Shown here: one piece after another, positions 9,160-51,668 of the stretch
Layout: every line of letters starts with the position of its first letter
How positions within the stretch are numbered: the stretch's first letter is position 1
NCBI RefSeq assembly: GCF_900100335.1
Contig: NZ_FNFE01000001.1
Coordinates: 620,001 to 684,000, forward strand
DNA from: Natronorubrum texcoconense
GTDB taxonomy: Archaea > Halobacteriota > Halobacteria > Halobacteriales > Natrialbaceae
Direction: 5' to 3'
DNA: 64,000 nucleotides
The notes under the pieces: generated by a model
Seen by the model: the letters and a program-made list of their open reading frames with translations, nothing else
Told to the model about the DNA's origin: nothing
Databases searched by the model: none
Made by a program: the position numbers and the translations under genes

Positions 9160-9927
9160 ATGGCAAGCGACTCGCGACACAGGCCGGTCGAAACCGTCGA
9201 AACCGCCTTCGACATCGTCGACGTGGTCAAAGCGGCCGACGGTGCAAGGATCACCGAGATCGCCGCCGAACTCGAACTGGCGAAGAGTACGGTTCACCGC
9301 CACGCGAAGACCCTCGAGGCGCGGGGACTGCTCGTCCAGGAGGGCGATACTTACCGTATCAGCACGTGGTTCCTCGATTACGGGATCCACGTTCGCAACC
9401 GTCACCGACTGTACGACGTCGCCAGACCGAAAGTCGACGAACTCGCCGCCGAAACCGACGAGAAGGTCTGGTGCGTGATCGAAGAGCACGGCGTGGGCGT
9501 CCACATCTACGGTGCCCAAGGGCGACACTCCGTGAAAACCCACGCTCGGATCGGCCAGCGGACGCACCTCCACCAGTTCGCCGCGGGGAAGGCGATTCTC
9601 GCACACCTCCCCGACGAACGAATCGAGCGGATTCTCGACGACTACGGCCTTTCCGCACAGACGGATCGGACGATCACCGATCGCGACGAACTCCGCGAGC
9701 ACCTCGAGACGATCCGCGAACGAGGGTACGCGTTCAACCGCGAGGAGTCGGTGATCGGCGTCCACGCCGTCGGCGCGCCAGTCAGAAACGAGTCGGGCAC
9801 CGCGATCGGCGCGATCAGCGTCGCCGGTCCCGCAAATCGGCTGCGCGGCGATCTGATGACCGAGGACCTCCCCGATCTGCTGCTCGGCGCGACGAATGAA
9901 GTCGAAGTCAATCTCGCCCACTCGTAA
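9160..9927 (+). CDS. IclR-family transcriptional regulator
   Basis: This 255-residue regulator has an N-terminal winged helix-turn-helix (about 10-75, with LAKSTVHRHAKTLEARGLL as the recognition region) and a C-terminal GAF-like effector-binding domain (about 90-250) with the conserved FAAGKAILAHLP and IGAISVAGP blocks. IclR proteins sense aromatic, sugar or short-chain acid metabolites and control adjacent catabolic genes. It sits between the EthD/HD genes and the amidohydrolase, so it is the likely local regulator. A TATA-like sequence lies about 28 bp upstream and TTCGAA motifs flank it. Confidence 0.88.
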   Translation: MASDSRHRPVETVETAFDIVDVVKAADGARITEIAAELELAKSTVHRHAKTLEARGLLVQEGDTYRISTWFLDYGIHVRNRHRLYDVARPKVDELAAETDEKVWCVIEEHGVGVHIYGAQGRHSVKTHARIGQRTHLHQFAAGKAILAHLPDERIERILDDYGLSAQTDRTITDRDELREHLETIRERGYAFNREESVIGVHAVGAPVRNESGTAIGAISVAGPANRLRGDLMTEDLPDLLLGATNEVEVNLAHS

Positions 9928-9944
9928 ATCGGATCGAGGCTCGC

Positions 9945-9968
9945 GCTCGAACGGCTCTTCGTTCGAGC
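9945..9968 (+). terminator. perfect 9-bp hairpin after the IclR gene
   Basis: The stem is GCTCGAACG (9945-9953) and CGTTCGAGC (9960-9968), with a 6-nt loop, beginning 18 bp after the IclR stop. There is no following T run, so it could be a processing or terminator hairpin or an operator-like dyad. Confidence 0.35.
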
Positions 9969-10177
9969 TGTTCGAACACCGATGAGACTGGCTCACCGTT
10001 CGCGTTCGACTTCGATTCGAATAGTTGGACGTGAGCGTCCGAACGTTCGAGTATCCCACGAATGACCGCTATCGAGGGGAGCGAGTGAGACGGTATCGAG
10101 ACGAAGCGATCCGCCTTGGCTATTACAAATGTACCTCTGTAATTCGCTCTCTGTGTGCGAGAAGAGGAGGAACAATC

Positions 10178-10231
10178 ATGTACAATGGTGGCGGAAAGCG
10201 CGGCGGATACCGTTTCGATCCGTTCCCATAG
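10178..10231 (+). CDS. putative 17-residue peptide with strong Shine-Dalgarno site
   Basis: This tiny ORF encodes MYNGGGKRGGYRFDPFP. AGGAGG at 10165-10170 sits 7 nt before the ATG, an ideal Shine-Dalgarno spacing that is uncommon in this mostly leaderless genome. A TATA-like tattacaaat (10121-10130) would place the transcription start about 20-30 nt before the SD site. No other gene follows on this strand, because the convergent amidohydrolase ends at 10281. It is either a real Gly-rich micro-protein or an accidental match. The 353-bp gap between 9928 and 10280 otherwise holds only the 9-bp hairpin and TTCGAA-rich sequence. Confidence 0.4.
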   Translation: MYNGGGKRGGYRFDPFP

Positions 10232-10280
10232 CTCGAACGGAGCGTGAAAGACGGTCGGGTCCGAACGACCGATCGACGGC

Positions 10281-11150
10281 TTACAACTCGAGGAACTCCT
10301 CGGCGGTCTCCCAGAGGATTTTGCGCTGAATCGACTCGTCGAAGTCGAGTTCGGCGAACTGCTCGAGCCACGGTTCGGGCTCGAGCATGGGGTAGTCGGT
10401 TCCGAACATAACCTTGTCCGAGAGGAGCGTCTGGGCGTACTGGAGCACCTGGTCGTCGATATATCTCGGCATCCAGCCGGAGAGATCCATGTAGACGTTG
10501 CCCTTCTGTTGGCAGATCGCGAGCTGTTCTTTCTCCCAGGGGTAGGCGGGGTGGGCGATGAGAATCTTGAGGTCCGGGTGTTCGGCCGCCACGTCGTCGA
10601 TCAACATCGGATTCCCGTACTTGATCTTCAACCCGCGGCCGCCCGGCGAACACGCCCCGAGCGTCGAGTTGCCCCCGTGGAAGACGACGGGAACCCCGAG
10701 ATCCTCGATGGTCTCCCAGAGCTCCTCGTGTTCGGGGTCGGACGGGTCGAACCCCTGGGCGATCTGCTGGAACTTGAACCCGGAGAGATCTAGGTCGTCG
10801 ACGCAGCGAACCGCCTCCTCGACGCAGTCGTCTTTGAGTGGGTCGACGGAGCCGAAGCCGACGAAGAAGTCGGCGTACTCGTCGCGAACCTCGGCGACGT
10901 AGTCGTTCGGAACGGGCGGATTTCCGGTGTTCGTTTCCGCGTCCCAGCCGAGCAAGACGGCGCGGCCGACGCCGGCGTCCCGATACTCCTCGAGCATGTG
11001 CTCGTACGTGTCCGGCTCGAGGTCGGCACCGAACCGGTCGGCCGCGTCTTTCATCATCTGCCCGCCCGCATCGTGGAGGAACTCGCTCGTCGGCTGGTGG
11101 GCGTGCATATCGATTGCGCGCGGCTCGTCGAGTACGGTGGGTGTTCCCAT
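10281..11150 (-). CDS. amidohydrolase family 2 (ACMSD-like) protein
   Basis: This 289-residue TIM-barrel metal-dependent hydrolase has the H-A-H pair at residues 16 and 18, a His in VFHGGNSTLG, a His in LIAHPAYPW, and an Asp in FGTDYPM. That is the usual metal/catalytic set of the ACMSD/2-pyrone-4,6-dicarboxylate hydrolase branch. Members decarboxylate or hydrolyse aromatic ring-cleavage or related acids. The gene ends convergently toward the IclR locus, which fits a catabolic cluster of unknown substrate. A TATA-like sequence (11171-11180, minus strand) about 26 bp upstream supports the start. Confidence 0.85.
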   Translation of the reverse strand: MGTPTVLDEPRAIDMHAHQPTSEFLHDAGGQMMKDAADRFGADLEPDTYEHMLEEYRDAGVGRAVLLGWDAETNTGNPPVPNDYVAEVRDEYADFFVGFGSVDPLKDDCVEEAVRCVDDLDLSGFKFQQIAQGFDPSDPEHEELWETIEDLGVPVVFHGGNSTLGACSPGGRGLKIKYGNPMLIDDVAAEHPDLKILIAHPAYPWEKEQLAICQQKGNVYMDLSGWMPRYIDDQVLQYAQTLLSDKVMFGTDYPMLEPEPWLEQFAELDFDESIQRKILWETAEEFLEL

Positions 11151-45869: not shown

Positions 45870-45995
45870 AAACGGAGCGACCGTTCGGCGGGGAGGCGTC
45901 GACGTGGGCTATCGTCACACAGCTTACGGACACCTCGATTCGACGCGCCGATGCAAGCCACAGCACCTTTACGGACGCCACGCCTCGGTAGCGGT

Positions 45996-46286
45996 ATGAC
46001 AGACGACATCGAGACGACGACGTTCGAGATCACCGCCGACGACGACAGCACCGACGACGTAACCATCCCGTCCGGACTCGTCGATCTCGTCGCCGAGGGC
46101 GACCAGTCCGACGCCGAAACGATCGGTGACATCACCCTCCTCTCCTTCGCCAGCCGCGCCCACCACATCGTCCACCACGGAGAGGGCGCGGACGAGGAAC
46201 TCGAGGCCCAGGAAGCTCGCATCATGGATCTGTTCGAGGAGCGATTCGGCGTGACCTACGGCGAAGCGACCGGCCACCAGCACTAA
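45996..46286 (+). CDS. small haloarchaeal protein (96 aa)
   Basis: This 96-residue protein is acidic (MTDDIETTTFEITADDDSTD). It has a central HHIVHHGEGADEE stretch with three His, and it ends in EATGHQH. It may be a small conserved haloarchaeal family. The His-rich part could bind metal. Function is unknown. Confidence 0.55.
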   Translation: MTDDIETTTFEITADDDSTDDVTIPSGLVDLVAEGDQSDAETIGDITLLSFASRAHHIVHHGEGADEELEAQEARIMDLFEERFGVTYGEATGHQH

Positions 46287-46407: not shown

Positions 46408-49400
46408 CTACGCCGCAGCCTCCGCCGGTTCCGCACCCGAATCGGGGGCCGATTCCTCTGGCTCCTCGGGAGTCTCAGGATCCTCGGGCTGCTGATCGGC
46501 CGGTTCGTCGTCCTCGTCGTCGTCCGTCTCAGGGACGCCCTCGTCGGGCTCGTCACCCGAATCGTCCGTCTCGTCCGCGTCCGTGGGCGGTTCCTCGGTC
46601 TGTGGTTCATCAGCGGGCGTCTCGTCCTCGAGCGGTCCGTCGGCCGGTGCCTCGTTCTCGAGCGGTTCCTCGGTTGGCGTCTCATCATCGAGCGATCCGT
46701 CGATTGGCGCTTCGTCGGCAGGCGCGTCAGCTGGGTCTTCTTCGACCGGGTCGTCAACAGGTTCGTCCGCTGATTCCGCCTCCGCTGGCTCGTCGGTCTC
46801 CTCGGTCGCTTCGTCCGCTGATTCCGCCTCCGCTGGCTCGTCGGTCTCCTCGGTCGCTTCGTCCTCGAGGCCGGTCTCGTCGGCCGCCTCGATCGTCACC
46901 GTCGTCTCGGCGGTTTCGTTCTCGCTCGAGACTGTAACCGTGTACTCGCCGGGCTCGAGATCGTCGGTTTCAGCCGTCAGCGTCGTCTCTTCGACGGCGC
47001 CGGGCTCGAGTGATACCTCCGTCGTATCGACGGTCTCGCCGTCGAGCGCCAGTTCGATCTCCTGGCTGTCTTCCGCCTCGCCGACGTTCTCGAGTTCGGC
47101 GCCGACCTCGAGCGTCTCGCCCTGCTCGACGGGGTCGTTCGTTTCCGTGATCGCGACCGAGAATTCGGCGTCCTCCGTGGGATCGATCTCGCCTGCGGTC
47201 TCCGTCGCGGCGGGTTCGACTGCGTCGTCCTCGTAGTCGTAGTTACTCATGTCGACCGCCCAGACGAGTCGCTCGTCGTCGGTCTCGGGCGTCCACTGGA
47301 CGGTGAACTCGTTCGTTCCGGGCGCGAGTTCGTCGACCGGCTCGTCCTCGGTCGTACCCTCGAGGAACTCGCTGCCGACGATCAGTTCGGCGTCGTTCGG
47401 GTTCTCGTAGCCGAAGGTGACGTCAATTCCGTCGTCGGTCGGCTCCGTCTCCTCGACGGTGAGGTCGGGCAAGTCAGGTCGGACCTCCTCGATGCACTCG
47501 CTCGCGTCGGGGTTCGGATGATCGATCGACCCCGGGATCGCATCGGGTGAGGCAAAGCCGGTGATCGCGGTTCCGAAGTTACCTTCGGGGACCGTCACGG
47601 TCGCGCCGTCGGCCGTCTCCTCGACGGCGAACTCCTCGCCGGTCTCGTAGGTGATCGTTCCCTCGAACGGCGCCTCGACGTCCTCGCCGACCGTGATCGC
47701 GTACTCGCCCATCGTGTTCCCGAAGCCGCCAGATTCGTAGAACCCGGTGGCGACGATGATCGTGTCGCCGTCCTCGAACGAGCCCGTCACTTCGGCCTGG
47801 GAGCAGTCGACGAACGTCGCCTCGAACGTCTCCCCGTCGTCGACCGTGTACTCGATCGTCTCGCTCGCGAGGACGCCGTCCGCGTCGGCATCGGCCCCGT
47901 CGCCGTCGACGTCAGTTTCCGTCTCCGTCGTCTCCGCGGCCGATTCGACCGCAACCTCGAGCGTCGCGTTCTCCTCGAGCGGCGGCTCGAGATCGAGCGA
48001 CTCGAGTTCGACGATCTCGTTGCCCTCGACGGTCTCGCTCGCCGCGCGCTGCTCGCCGTCCGCGTCGGTGACGGTGAGTTGGTAGTCCACGTCGGCGCTC
48101 GCCTCCTCGACGGTCAGCGTCTCGCCGTCACCCGTCTGGTCGCTCACGTTGAGCGTCGCCTCCGGCTCCGGGGCCGGCGGTTCGTCCGCGAGCGTGTACT
48201 CGATCGATTCCGTCGCGAGTTCCGCGTCGCCATCGCCGACGACGCTCACGTCGACAGTCGTGGACGCCTCGATCGGCGGCTCGAGGGTCAGTTCGAGCTC
48301 CGTCTGCGTCTCGTTCGCCTCGAACTGCTCGCTCTCGACCTGTTCGCCGTCGTATGCCGCAGCGACGGTGAAGTCGGTATCCGCGCTCGCTTCGTCCACG
48401 ATGAGCGTTTCGCCGTCACCCTCCTGATCGCTGACCGCGAGAGTCGCTTCGGGATCAACTGGGTCGTCGGGCTCGCCCGGATCGTCGGGAGCGTCGACCG
48501 TCACGAGCGCCGTATCGAGCACCGGTGCGCCGCCCTCGGTGACGTACGGCTCGTCCTCTTCGCCGTCCGAGGCTGCGTACTGGAACGACTCGTCGTCGGT
48601 CGTCTCGTGGTGGGCTACCGCGACGAGGGGCTGCTCCCCATCGATCGGTTCCTCGAGGTCGATCTCGACGTCGGTGTGCTCACCGCTCTCGAGGTAGCTC
48701 GAGACCCCGACCACGCCGTTCGGATCGGCCGCGGTGTCGCCGGCGTAGATCGCCACGAACCCGCCCTCGGAGAGTTCGACGCTGTCGACGCTGACGCGCT
48801 CGCCGTCGCTGTCCTGGTCACTGAACGCGATCGACGCCTCGCCCTCGAGTTCGTCGACCGTCTCGATCTGCTGCTCGATCTCGATCTCGACGTACTGACT
48901 GATCTCGGTCGGGTCGTCGATCCCCTCCTGAACCGCGTACGCCGTCGCATCACTTGCGGTCTCTTGGATCAGAATCTGCAACTGCGTGATGCTGATCTGC
49001 TGGTACTGTATCACCTGTGCCGTCTGCTGGCAGGCGGCGCTAGCCGCGAACTGGATCTGCTGGACCGTTGCCTCCTGATGTTGCATCAACACGCCGCTCG
49101 CGCTCCCGCTCGCGAGGACCTGAACCTGCGTGACGTCGACGATCTGCGTCTGGATTACGGCACCCTCGCCGGCACCGAACGCGGCAGCCTGAACCTGTTC
49201 GACCTCGACGACCTGCTGTTGGATCGCGCCCTCGATCGCGCCTTCGGCCGCACCGACGGCGGCGTACTGGATTTGCGTGATCGAGATCTCCTGTTGCTGG
49301 ACGAGCACGCCGCCGGCGGCACCGTCAGCCGCGGCCTGGATCTGCTCGACGGACGCCTCCTGACTCTGAGCGATCGCTCCCGTCGCCGCACCGACGGAGG

Positions 49401-50565
49401 CCTCCTGGATCTGCGTGATCGAGATGCGCTGGACCTGCTCGACGGTGATCGTCTGGACCTGTTTCAGCGCTCCCGCGCTCGCTCCGCGCGCCGCGGACTG
49501 GGTCTGCTCGACGGTGACCTCCTGTTGCTGGACGAGCGCTCCCTTCGCGCCGCCCGTCGCGGCCTTCTGGATCTGTTTGATGTCGACGCGCTGGTATTGC
49601 TCGACGTCGACGTCTTGGGTCTGCTCGAGTGCCTCCTGGGTCGATCCCTCGAGCGCGCCGGCCGACGCGCCCGCCGCGGCGTGCTGGACGTGCTCGAGCG
49701 TCACCTGCTGGCGCTGGTCGACGGTTATCTGCTGGTACTGCTCGAGGGCACCGTAGGCCGCACCCTGTGCGGCCTCCTGGATCTTCGGCGTCTCGTCGAT
49801 CCCCTGTGCGCCGGCCTCGAACGCGGCGCCGGCCGCAGCGCCTTGCGCTGCGACCTGAATCTGCTCGACCTCGACGCGCTGTTCCTGGGCGAGCGCACCG
49901 TGGGTCGCACCCCACGTCGCGGCTTGCATCTGGCTCGCTTCGACCGTCTGGTACTGAGCGAGCGCCCCGTCGGTCGCGCCGCCCACGGCGTACTGAATCT
50001 GCTCGGCCTCGACCTGCTGTGACTGCATCAGCGAGCCGTGGACCGCACCTTTCGTCGCCTCCTGAATCTGCTCGACCTCGGCTTCCTGGTGCTGCGTGAC
50101 TGACTCGCTAGCCCCGTCGATCGCCGTCGCTCGCTGCTCCTGGGTCACGTTGACGCCCTGGGACTGGGCCAGTTCGATCCCCTCGTCGATGCCGGCTTCG
50201 ACGCCGTCTGCTTGTGCTTGGGCGAGCGTCACCTGCGCATCCGCCTCGCCGACGGCAGCGTCCGACTCACCGTCCGGATTCTCCCCGTCCGCGCTGGCGG
50301 TGTCCGCGGTCGCCGTCGTCGGCTCCATCGCGACCAACTCGAGTGACTCGCTCGCGTCCGCGTCGTCGACGTCCGATCCACCGTTCGCCTCGGCCTCGTC
50401 ACCGGTGTCGATCTCGGTCGTTTCGCCGTCCGAATCGCCGGGGCCCTCCTGTCCGGCGTCGAACGGAGCGATAGTGCCCCCGAGCAGCGGCAACGCCATC
50501 ACACTGGTTATCATCAGGAACGCGACGAGCAGCGTCGCGGCGACCGCAGCACGTCCCTTGTTCAT
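46408..50565 (-). CDS. giant secreted protein with 23-residue Gln/Gly/Ala repeats, DUF7282-like and CARDB-like domains
   Basis: This 1385-residue protein starts MNKGRAAVAATLLVAFLMITS, a Sec-type signal or N-terminal anchor. Residues about 160-535 contain at least 15 copies of a strict 23-residue unit, roughly V-x-V-E-Q-I-Q-x-A-A-x-G-A-A-x-G-A-L-x-Q-x-Q. The Q-x-Q pairs fall at 166, 189, 212, 235, 354, 377, 408, 431, 457, 480 and 503, mostly 23 apart. Three DUF7282-like modules follow (SDQ-x-GDGE motifs near 580-840), then a beta-rich middle, a CARDB-like domain (SVAITETNDPVEQGE) and an Asp/Glu/Pro-rich tail. No PGF-CTERM or C-terminal TM is seen. It is probably a cell-surface or secreted adhesin-like polymer, and the function is unknown. 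Confidence 0.82.
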   Translation of the reverse strand: MNKGRAAVAATLLVAFLMITSVMALPLLGGTIAPFDAGQEGPGDSDGETTEIDTGDEAEANGGSDVDDADASESLELVAMEPTTATADTASADGENPDGESDAAVGEADAQVTLAQAQADGVEAGIDEGIELAQSQGVNVTQEQRATAIDGASESVTQHQEAEVEQIQEATKGAVHGSLMQSQQVEAEQIQYAVGGATDGALAQYQTVEASQMQAATWGATHGALAQEQRVEVEQIQVAAQGAAAGAAFEAGAQGIDETPKIQEAAQGAAYGALEQYQQITVDQRQQVTLEHVQHAAAGASAGALEGSTQEALEQTQDVDVEQYQRVDIKQIQKAATGGAKGALVQQQEVTVEQTQSAARGASAGALKQVQTITVEQVQRISITQIQEASVGAATGAIAQSQEASVEQIQAAADGAAGGVLVQQQEISITQIQYAAVGAAEGAIEGAIQQQVVEVEQVQAAAFGAGEGAVIQTQIVDVTQVQVLASGSASGVLMQHQEATVQQIQFAASAACQQTAQVIQYQQISITQLQILIQETASDATAYAVQEGIDDPTEISQYVEIEIEQQIETVDELEGEASIAFSDQDSDGERVSVDSVELSEGGFVAIYAGDTAADPNGVVGVSSYLESGEHTDVEIDLEEPIDGEQPLVAVAHHETTDDESFQYAASDGEEDEPYVTEGGAPVLDTALVTVDAPDDPGEPDDPVDPEATLAVSDQEGDGETLIVDEASADTDFTVAAAYDGEQVESEQFEANETQTELELTLEPPIEASTTVDVSVVGDGDAELATESIEYTLADEPPAPEPEATLNVSDQTGDGETLTVEEASADVDYQLTVTDADGEQRAASETVEGNEIVELESLDLEPPLEENATLEVAVESAAETTETETDVDGDGADADADGVLASETIEYTVDDGETFEATFVDCSQAEVTGSFEDGDTIIVATGFYESGGFGNTMGEYAITVGEDVEAPFEGTITYETGEEFAVEETADGATVTVPEGNFGTAITGFASPDAIPGSIDHPNPDASECIEEVRPDLPDLTVEETEPTDDGIDVTFGYENPNDAELIVGSEFLEGTTEDEPVDELAPGTNEFTVQWTPETDDERLVWAVDMSNYDYEDDAVEPAATETAGEIDPTEDAEFSVAITETNDPVEQGETLEVGAELENVGEAEDSQEIELALDGETVDTTEVSLEPGAVEETTLTAETDDLEPGEYTVTVSSENETAETTVTIEAADETGLEDEATEETDEPAEAESADEATEETDEPAEAESADEPVDDPVEEDPADAPADEAPIDGSLDDETPTEEPLENEAPADGPLEDETPADEPQTEEPPTDADETDDSGDEPDEGVPETDDDEDDEPADQQPEDPETPEEPEESAPDSGAEPAEAAA
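46762..46857. repeat. 48-bp perfect tandem duplication in the giant gene
   Basis: The units 46762-46809 and 46810-46857 are identical. They encode 16 residues each of the acidic EETDEPAEAESADEA-type tail. An intact duplication suggests recent slippage in a low-complexity segment. Confidence 0.75.
48961..50090 (-). repeat. 23-codon protein-level repeat block
   Basis: This is the coding region of the 15 or more 23-residue units. DNA identity between units is low, but the protein period is strict. Eight-residue inserts (Q286 to Q294, Q325 to Q333 and Q379 to Q387) double the strand-like part in some units. Confidence 0.75.
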
Positions 50566-51080
50566 GTCTCGACTCCCCGCTCGGTGGCCGTCGCGGACCG
50601 CTGCCGCAGGTCGTGATTTCCGCACCGTCGGCTCTCTCCGTCGTCTCCTCGACCGTTACCGCTGACGGCGACAGTCGATCGATGACCGTCTCCCCACCCA
50701 CAGGTCGGCTGCCGGTCGCGGCTCTTCCCCTGACGCCCACTATCGAATGTCATACTCACAGATCGCATCAGTTCTCAGTCATCGGGCCGAACGAGCGCTT
50801 AAGCTACGCCGGTCGTTTCAGTTAGTACCGAGAGACAATCGACCATTACGGTCCTCGAGACCGCCGAACTCGCGGGGGCGATCGAGTGGCTGGACTGCGA
50901 TGGTTCGCTCGCGATTGGTACCGGCTGGCGGACTCGAGAGTACGGGCCCGTGACAGGAACGCTCCGTTTTGTGCCGTTCTCACGCTACCGGCATCGCTAC
51001 CAGACGGTCGATATGACGGCGAACTGTCGGACACCTCGGAAACCGAAGTGTTGAACTGGGTTTACGAGAGAGTCGGTGCC
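50566..51080. other. 515-bp divergent region upstream of the giant gene and bioY
   Basis: The gap is GC-rich and has no convincing gene. ctta-type AT-rich spots near 50799 could be promoter elements for the minus-strand gene. A gttgaactgggttta segment lies just ahead of bioY (51047-51062), in a position where a biotin-responsive operator could occur, but I cannot assign one. A longer in-frame bioY start is unlikely. Confidence 0.35.
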
Positions 51081-51668
51081 ATGGAAACGGAAGGGAGCTC
51101 GGTGGAGCTCGTAGATGGGGACGTCGTCCGGCAGTTCGCCCGGGCAGCGGTGCTCGCGGCGCTACTCGGGGCAGTAGCGCCCGTGGCAATACCGCTCCCG
51201 CTATCGCCGGCACCGCTCACGTTGCAGGTACTGTTCGTCTTTCTCGCCGGTCTCGTGTTGGGGCCCGTCTGGGGATCGGTGTCGATGCTGCTCTATCTCA
51301 CCGCCGGGGCGATCGGCATTCCGGTCTTCGCGGGGTGGGAAGCCGGTCTCGGAACGCTGTTCGGCCCGACGGGCGGCTACCTCTGGTCGTACCCCGTCGC
51401 CGCGGCGCTGATCGGGGCCGTCGTTCACCGCGGAACCGATCTCCGCGATCCGGCCGCAGTCCCTCTGCCGATCGTCGTCGTGGCCCTCGTGATGGGGACG
51501 ATCGTCATCTACGGCATGGGGACGGGCTACGCCGCTTGGCTGCTCGAACTCGAGGCCTGGGAGGCGATCGCCGGCTTCGCGCTCCCGTTTATCCCCGGCG
51601 AACTGCTCAAGATGGCCGCCGCGATCGCCATCGTCCAGAGCGGCCGAATCGAGCCGATTCAGTCGTGA
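51081..51668 (+). CDS. bioY: biotin ECF transporter S component BioY
   Basis: This 195-residue membrane protein has about six TM segments and the BioY pattern, including the GWEAGLGTLFGPTGGYLWSY loop. BioY binds biotin and works with EcfA/EcfT (BioM/BioN) to import it. The ATG at 51081 gives a normal BioY length. The gene is first in an operon: ecfA starts 14 bp after its stop. Confidence 0.9.
   Translation: METEGSSVELVDGDVVRQFARAAVLAALLGAVAPVAIPLPLSPAPLTLQVLFVFLAGLVLGPVWGSVSMLLYLTAGAIGIPVFAGWEAGLGTLFGPTGGYLWSYPVAAALIGAVVHRGTDLRDPAAVPLPIVVVALVMGTIVIYGMGTGYAAWLLELEAWEAIAGFALPFIPGELLKMAAAIAIVQSGRIEPIQS

Follow-up and report, generated by a model that had tools for sequence, protein, structure and literature searches.

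The stretch of Natronorubrum texcoconense DNA analysed here (NCBI RefSeq assembly GCF_900100335.1, contig NZ_FNFE01000001.1, positions 620,001 to 684,000; 64,000 nucleotides, referred to below as the window) encodes a large, probably secreted protein, here named Qrep, that contains an array of 23-residue repeats rich in Gln, Gly and Ala. Qrep is not an isolated curiosity: it is conserved in most Natrialbaceae. The array is predicted to form an all-helix solenoid, and thus a rigid rod rather than a fibre of the amyloid type, and some of its units carry conserved residues that may form a common face. The explanation put forward here, to which we give about an even chance, is that Qrep is a secreted rod of helices, one face of which binds a specific ligand, and that exchangeable surface modules are attached to it. 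A secreted protein of most Natrialbaceae built on an unnamed repeat marks a gap in the knowledge of archaeal cell surfaces.

The repeat array and its conservation

Autocorrelation of residues 105-570 with BLOSUM scores peaks at a lag of 23 residues (z 11.1; 200 shuffles reach z 4.1 at most), and smaller peaks at lags 8 and 31 come from inserted eight-residue VxVEQxQ pieces. The consensus of the unit is Q-x-Q-x-V-[T/S/D/E/N]-V-[E/T]-Q-[I/V]-Q-x-A-A-x-G-A-A-x-G-A-L-x. Thirteen clean units start at residues 158, 181, 204, 227, 253, 284, 323, 346, 377, 400, 423, 449 and 472, flanked by degenerate units and a helical N-terminal cap. A first-pass annotation of the window, made by a model from the letters alone, had described at least 15 units in strict register. 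The 23-residue period was confirmed, both by the autocorrelation and by its conservation across species; the count of clean units is lower, and their spacing, mostly 23, is also 26, 31 or 39 where short pieces are inserted. Because the pattern is conserved across species, its origin by chance is excluded. Gly at unit positions 16 and 20 is invariant in the 13 units across Natrialbaceae. Position 6 is T, S, D or N in 82% of units, a composition typical of a helix N-cap.

Searches of Pfam, NCBIfam and PDB sequences revealed no family covering the array. The repeat of the window protein had no Pfam match at E up to 1, and its profile matched no PDB sequence at the same limit; none of the named alpha-repeat families in Pfam (TPR, HEAT, ARM, TALE and others) matched the array above its curated cut-off, and when 48 members were searched against Pfam at E up to 0.5, curlin was not among the matches. 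The Gly-zipper family PF13441 gave a weak match in 5 of these 48 (best E 0.0079). The profile search proposed by the first-pass annotation thus leaves the repeat without a name in any searched family, and literature searches on haloarchaeal solenoid or Gln-rich surface proteins yielded nothing relevant.

A repeat-domain search gave matches in 31 of the 61 relatives and in 110 of the 391 haloarchaeal genomes covered. When a shorter paralogue with a twin-arginine translocation (Tat) signal served as the query, matches were obtained in 104 of the 125 Natrialbaceae genomes; in other haloarchaeal families the domain is patchy. A few members have extra sequence inside the array, seen as split matches in the haloarchaeal genome search. 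All matches in a scan of GTDB r220 (one genome per species) were haloarchaeal, although the scan relies on short conserved peptides and remote relatives can escape it, and a phylum sample contained no repeat-domain match outside the class. A viral origin or spread was considered and rejected, as no viral relative of the repeat domain was found in IMG/VR and the fold comparison yielded no significant viral match.

Across Natrialbaceae no other part of the protein is as well conserved as the array (67% identity at full coverage, with 20% in the linker before it and 21% in the C-terminal tail). In comparison with the nearest relative, the ratio of nonsynonymous to synonymous substitution rates (dN/dS) is 0.10 for the array, 0.14 for the DUF7282 domain and 0.32 for the first 104 residues. 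Within the family, a given unit was closest to the unit of the same number in the other species in 476 of 520 comparisons, so that the units diverged before the radiation of the family and have kept separate identities. By its distribution and these comparisons, the repeat domain is old and under selection.

Predicted fold and the conserved patch

Residues 118-372 alone, modelled with AlphaFold2 from 48 sequences, gave a mean predicted local distance difference test score (pLDDT) of 89.5 and a predicted template modelling score (pTM) of 0.89, with no strands and with all five models above pLDDT 81. A longer construct (residues 100-693, 46 sequences; pLDDT 85.4, pTM 0.73) has helices throughout the array and strands solely in the DUF7282 domain. 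In the models each unit forms a single helix, which begins at position 7-8 and is some 16 residues long. Unit positions 12, 15, 19 and 23, the most variable of the helix, form a single helical stripe and were taken as facing outward. Mutual-information couplings between these stripe positions are strongest for units two apart (i and i+2; p 0.0024-0.0034 relative to shuffled unit order), and those between positions 12 and 23 peak between units i and i+1 (p 0.026), which is the pattern expected of helices alternating between two layers. When the repeat-only model was compared with the PDB using VIA-align, the best match was the designed protein FD15 (8UGC; Z 10.6, root-mean-square deviation (rmsd) 7.8, 238 of 255 residues); the next had Z 6.1, and all matches other than FD15 (Z ≤6.1) fall into the range that the notes of the program call a common arrangement. 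By structural class the array is a predicted alpha-solenoid. The structure prediction that had been suggested as a check on the first-pass annotation thus gave a regular, ordered helical repeat and not disorder.

Among the 52 stripe positions, six that are not Ala are conserved beyond Natrialbaceae: H176 (95% of Natrialbaceae and 78% of other relatives), W218 (97%; W, Y, F or H in 91% of other relatives), H222 (97 and 88%), E264 (100 and 87%), Q267 (97 and 100%) and Y271 (98%; Y, F or H in 94% of other relatives). All six belong to the alternate units 0, 2 and 4, for which the chance over all such triples is about 4e-4, and they therefore lie on one face if the layers alternate. The patch is common to members with DUF7282, beta-helix, TSP3 plus CAP or other C-termini. 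Judged by its conservation, its most likely reading is a binding site for a ligand or a partner protein, and it offers a concrete, mutable target for finding the function of Qrep.

In the proposed mechanism, the N-terminal domain would be a rigid alpha-alpha solenoid to which every 23-residue unit contributes a single helix. Each unit would combine a QxQxV loop and an N-cap at position 6 with a helix, some 16 residues long, that has Ala/Gly faces (AAxGAAxGAL). The GxxxG faces would allow unusually close helix packing, and successive helices would belong to two layers in alternation. In one of these layers, units 0, 2 and 4 would then display the His/aromatic/Glu/Gln patch as a putative ligand or partner site, with the remaining array as a scaffold, and the C-terminal beta-sandwich modules and acidic tail, exchanged between lineages, may lengthen the protein or dock it. 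The repeat, its conservation, the helical prediction, the alternate-unit patch and the domain exchange were computed; cleavage and secretion, binding by the patch and all of the cell biology are what we infer. Several points weigh against this explanation. The thresholds of the alternate-unit test were set after looking, and exposure of the patch is deduced from variability and register, so that the residues could instead be a packing feature. The couplings come from about 71 effective sequences with shared ancestry only partly removed, and the five AlphaFold2 models that include DUF7282 (residues 100-693) spread from pLDDT 85 to 40. Finally, short relatives with Tat signals lack most of the patch, and the binding face cannot therefore be the function of the whole family. 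More tentatively, and with clearly less confidence than in the explanation above, we suggest an undescribed natural family of nearly flat, one-helix-per-repeat solenoids, so far seen in haloarchaea only, in which a general receptor rod would recognise one ligand (possibly a B vitamin, a corrinoid or an archaeal surface component) by its conserved face while C-terminal effector or anchor modules are swapped.

Alternative explanations and the genomic locus

The array might be a pure spacer or stalk, a stiff rod serving only to keep the beta modules at a distance from the cell, with the conserved residues being structural. Its rod-like prediction, its fusion to unrelated C-terminal modules and its differing length among relatives all agree with this possibility, which we nevertheless consider rather unlikely: the units of a spacer should drift or vary in number, whereas in Natrialbaceae each keeps its identity (the 476 of 520 comparisons above), and the conserved polar and aromatic surface residues are confined to one face.

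The second alternative is connected with the locus. Wherever a Natrialbaceae contig is long enough to show its surroundings, the gene lies between the divergent bioY-cbiO-cbiQ genes and DUF7545-DUF5799. DUF7545 and bioY (window positions 45951-46286 and 50886-51668) are direct neighbours in several genomes without the repeat gene, a clean empty site; in one of these (G164) they are about 126 bases apart. The repeat gene has thus been inserted or lost as a discrete piece, and the proximity of bioY is, at least in part, a matter of position. A function requiring bioY was rejected on the same observation. Elsewhere in the same genome (contig C5, positions 9215-10729 of locus L090), the Tat paralogue of 505 aa, with a shortened array, lies directly upstream of bioB-bioF-bioD; apart from this genome, only the closest relative (G003) was found to have it. 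The repeat gene adjoins btuF-btuC, which encode a corrinoid transporter, in seven genomes belonging to a single genus outside Natrialbaceae (loci L104, L109, L179, L181, L197, L199 and L200), and the Halorarius copy is near a cobalamin cluster. In one genus a second copy follows a zinc-ribbon gene, and bioD-bioF-bioB come next in L182, though not in L172 and relatives.

These neighbours could point to acquisition of biotin or B12, with Qrep binding or capturing a B vitamin or corrinoid outside the cell, and the bioY-cbiO-cbiQ, bioB-bioF-bioD, btuF-btuC and Halorarius contexts all count in its favour. We hold it to be improbable, since genomes without the repeat gene keep bioY, still beside DUF7545, most of the approximately 28 locus types have no vitamin gene nearby, and the bioD adjacency of L182 is absent from its relatives. 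A general vitamin-locus rule was also rejected, as 18 further loci added just more copies of the btuF type. The adjacency was noticed after the first cases had been seen and is at present a suggestive but unproven lead.

Two alternatives concern the fold. A parallel beta-alpha solenoid of the LRR type, each coil of which would contain one strand and one helix, both short, would account for the alternating conserved Q and V at positions 1, 3, 5, 7 and 9, yet it is very unlikely: neither model contains a strand, helices of about 16 residues leave a linker too short to run back, the couplings are strongest at i,i+2 and not at i,i+1, and the best PDB match has a helix-turn-helix-turn arrangement. 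An amyloid or curli-like beta fibre is a still poorer candidate. The Gln ladder and a period within the range of curli repeats count for it, and an extended strand could be compatible with positions 1-9, where conserved residues alternate with variable ones, but both models are helical without strand in the repeat, position 6 has N-cap composition and there was no curlin or other Pfam match above cut-off; this reading was rejected on the helical models and the N-cap signature. The strand-like part assigned to the unit in the first-pass annotation consequently finds no support in the two AlphaFold2 jobs, the N-cap or the coupling pattern, and of its comparison with solenoids and curli-like fibres only the regular solenoid remains. 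Least probable of all is an enzyme with a catalytic His/Tyr/Glu/Gln patch acting, for example, on surface polysaccharide, for although such residue types occur in helical polysaccharide-active enzymes and in structure comparison the DUF7282 part is similar to a carbohydrate-binding module (8WAE, Z 8.1), the array has no sequence or clear fold match to enzyme families, the flat face of the rod has no obvious cleft and the identity of the aromatic residues varies (W/Y/F).

Domain layout, relatives and comparison with known systems

The features of the gene are collected in Table 1. Signal-peptide cleavage was deduced from the sequence and the N-termini of orthologues, and Qrep would act at the cell surface or just outside it.

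Table 1. Positions of the Qrep gene and its parts in the window
Feature	Positions	Strand	Remarks
Whole gene, predicted secreted repeat protein Qrep, 1,385 aa	46408..50565	-	ATG at 50565, stop 46408-46410
Predicted signal peptide, residues 1-24	50494..50565	-	hydrophobic core, V-x-A-like cleavage site, conserved in orthologues
Acidic linker, fast-evolving, residues 25-104	50254..50493	-	20% identity among Natrialbaceae; dN/dS 0.32 (residues 1-104)
Helical N-cap and 23-residue repeat array, residues 105-570	48856..50253	-	
Putative surface patch, conserved, units 0, 2, 4 (H176, W218, H222, E264, Q267, Y271)	49753..50040	-	
K330	49576..49578	-	conserved in 98% of Natrialbaceae, 93% of other relatives
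DUF7282 domain, residues 577-689	48499..48837	-	Pfam; beta-sandwich in AlphaFold2 model
Two DUF7282-like modules, residues 697-925	47791..48477	-	mutual identity 46%
Two more conserved modules without Pfam name, residues 926-1134	47164..47790	-	
CARDB domain, residues 1135-1222	46900..47163	-	Pfam
Acidic Pro-rich tail, residues 1223-1385	46411..46899	-	46% Asp+Glu; 21% identity between species

The CARDB-like module and acidic tail of the first-pass annotation were both recovered, the former as a Pfam match (PF07705; E 7.9e-6, 26.5 bits, gathering cut-off 22.7). Its three DUF7282-like modules are a fair but loose description: Pfam DUF7282 (PF23951) matches strongly in two stretches (E 2.8e-34, 118.1 bits, gathering cut-off 27) and stands for one module, and modules 2 and 3 (approximately residues 697-925) are only weakly like it. 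A literature search found no paper naming DUF7282. Within the part coding for the acidic tail there is a perfect 48-bp tandem duplication of 2.1 copies (46762-46864). Antisense to the repeat runs an open frame of 647 codons (48079-50022, forward strand); its translation, rich in Arg, Leu and Asp, suggests that the frame is a by-product of the GC-rich coding sequence opposite.

Among the relatives, the array is fused to DUF7282 plus CARDB, to a NosD-like beta-helix, to TSP3 repeats plus CAP or to carboxypeptidase-regulatory-like domains, and this exchange suggests one rod with many surface modules. Some members (L085 and L099) have little beyond signal and array, and in some the C-terminus is a hydrophobic stretch with basic residues after it. 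Several short relatives carry twin-arginine signals; for these the Tat pathway suggests export after folding, which fits an ordered domain. Arrays of other families (e.g., L103, L084 and L104) have up to 18 N-x-S/T sequons, and 227 of 329 sequons share the form N[V/A/I/T/L][S/T], mostly at unit position 6. The array loops may be glycosylated, or the Asn may simply serve as the N-cap.

The DUF7282 and CARDB haloarchaeal surface proteins share their C-terminal domains with Qrep; the array, however, is no part of these domains, and in some of its relatives neither domain is present. Curli (CsgA) repeats are similar to the Qrep repeat in length and Gln/Gly content, but Qrep is predicted to be helical, has no curlin Pfam match and has no curli genes as neighbours. 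Gly-zipper families (PF13441) share the GxxxG spacing, whereas Qrep would be a soluble, Gln-rich array of many helices, and the match is weak and limited to a minority of members. TAL effector repeats and other natural alpha-alpha solenoids are helical like Qrep, and Foldseek gave local matches to TALE chains; whole-chain TM-scores, on the other hand, are low (about 0.1-0.15), and there is no sequence family match. TALE-type repeats have two helices per 33-35 residues, the Qrep unit one per 23. The sole clear structural match is FD15 (PDB 8UGC), a designed flat helix-turn-helix-turn repeat protein with 8.7 angstrom between helices in adjacent repeats (PMC10721895). Both are straight alpha-alpha repeats; the rmsd of 7.8 means that the curvature differs, and homology is not implied. 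FD15 is synthetic and has regular carboxylate arrays, whereas the outward positions of Qrep vary between units and form no regular array, for which reason mineral or ice templating by analogy with FD15 was rejected. Close helix packing fits Ala/Gly helices, and we presume a similarly close spacing in Qrep. If the predicted fold is right, Qrep would be a natural equivalent of the flat helical repeats made by design, one in which closely packed Ala/Gly helices work in high salt.

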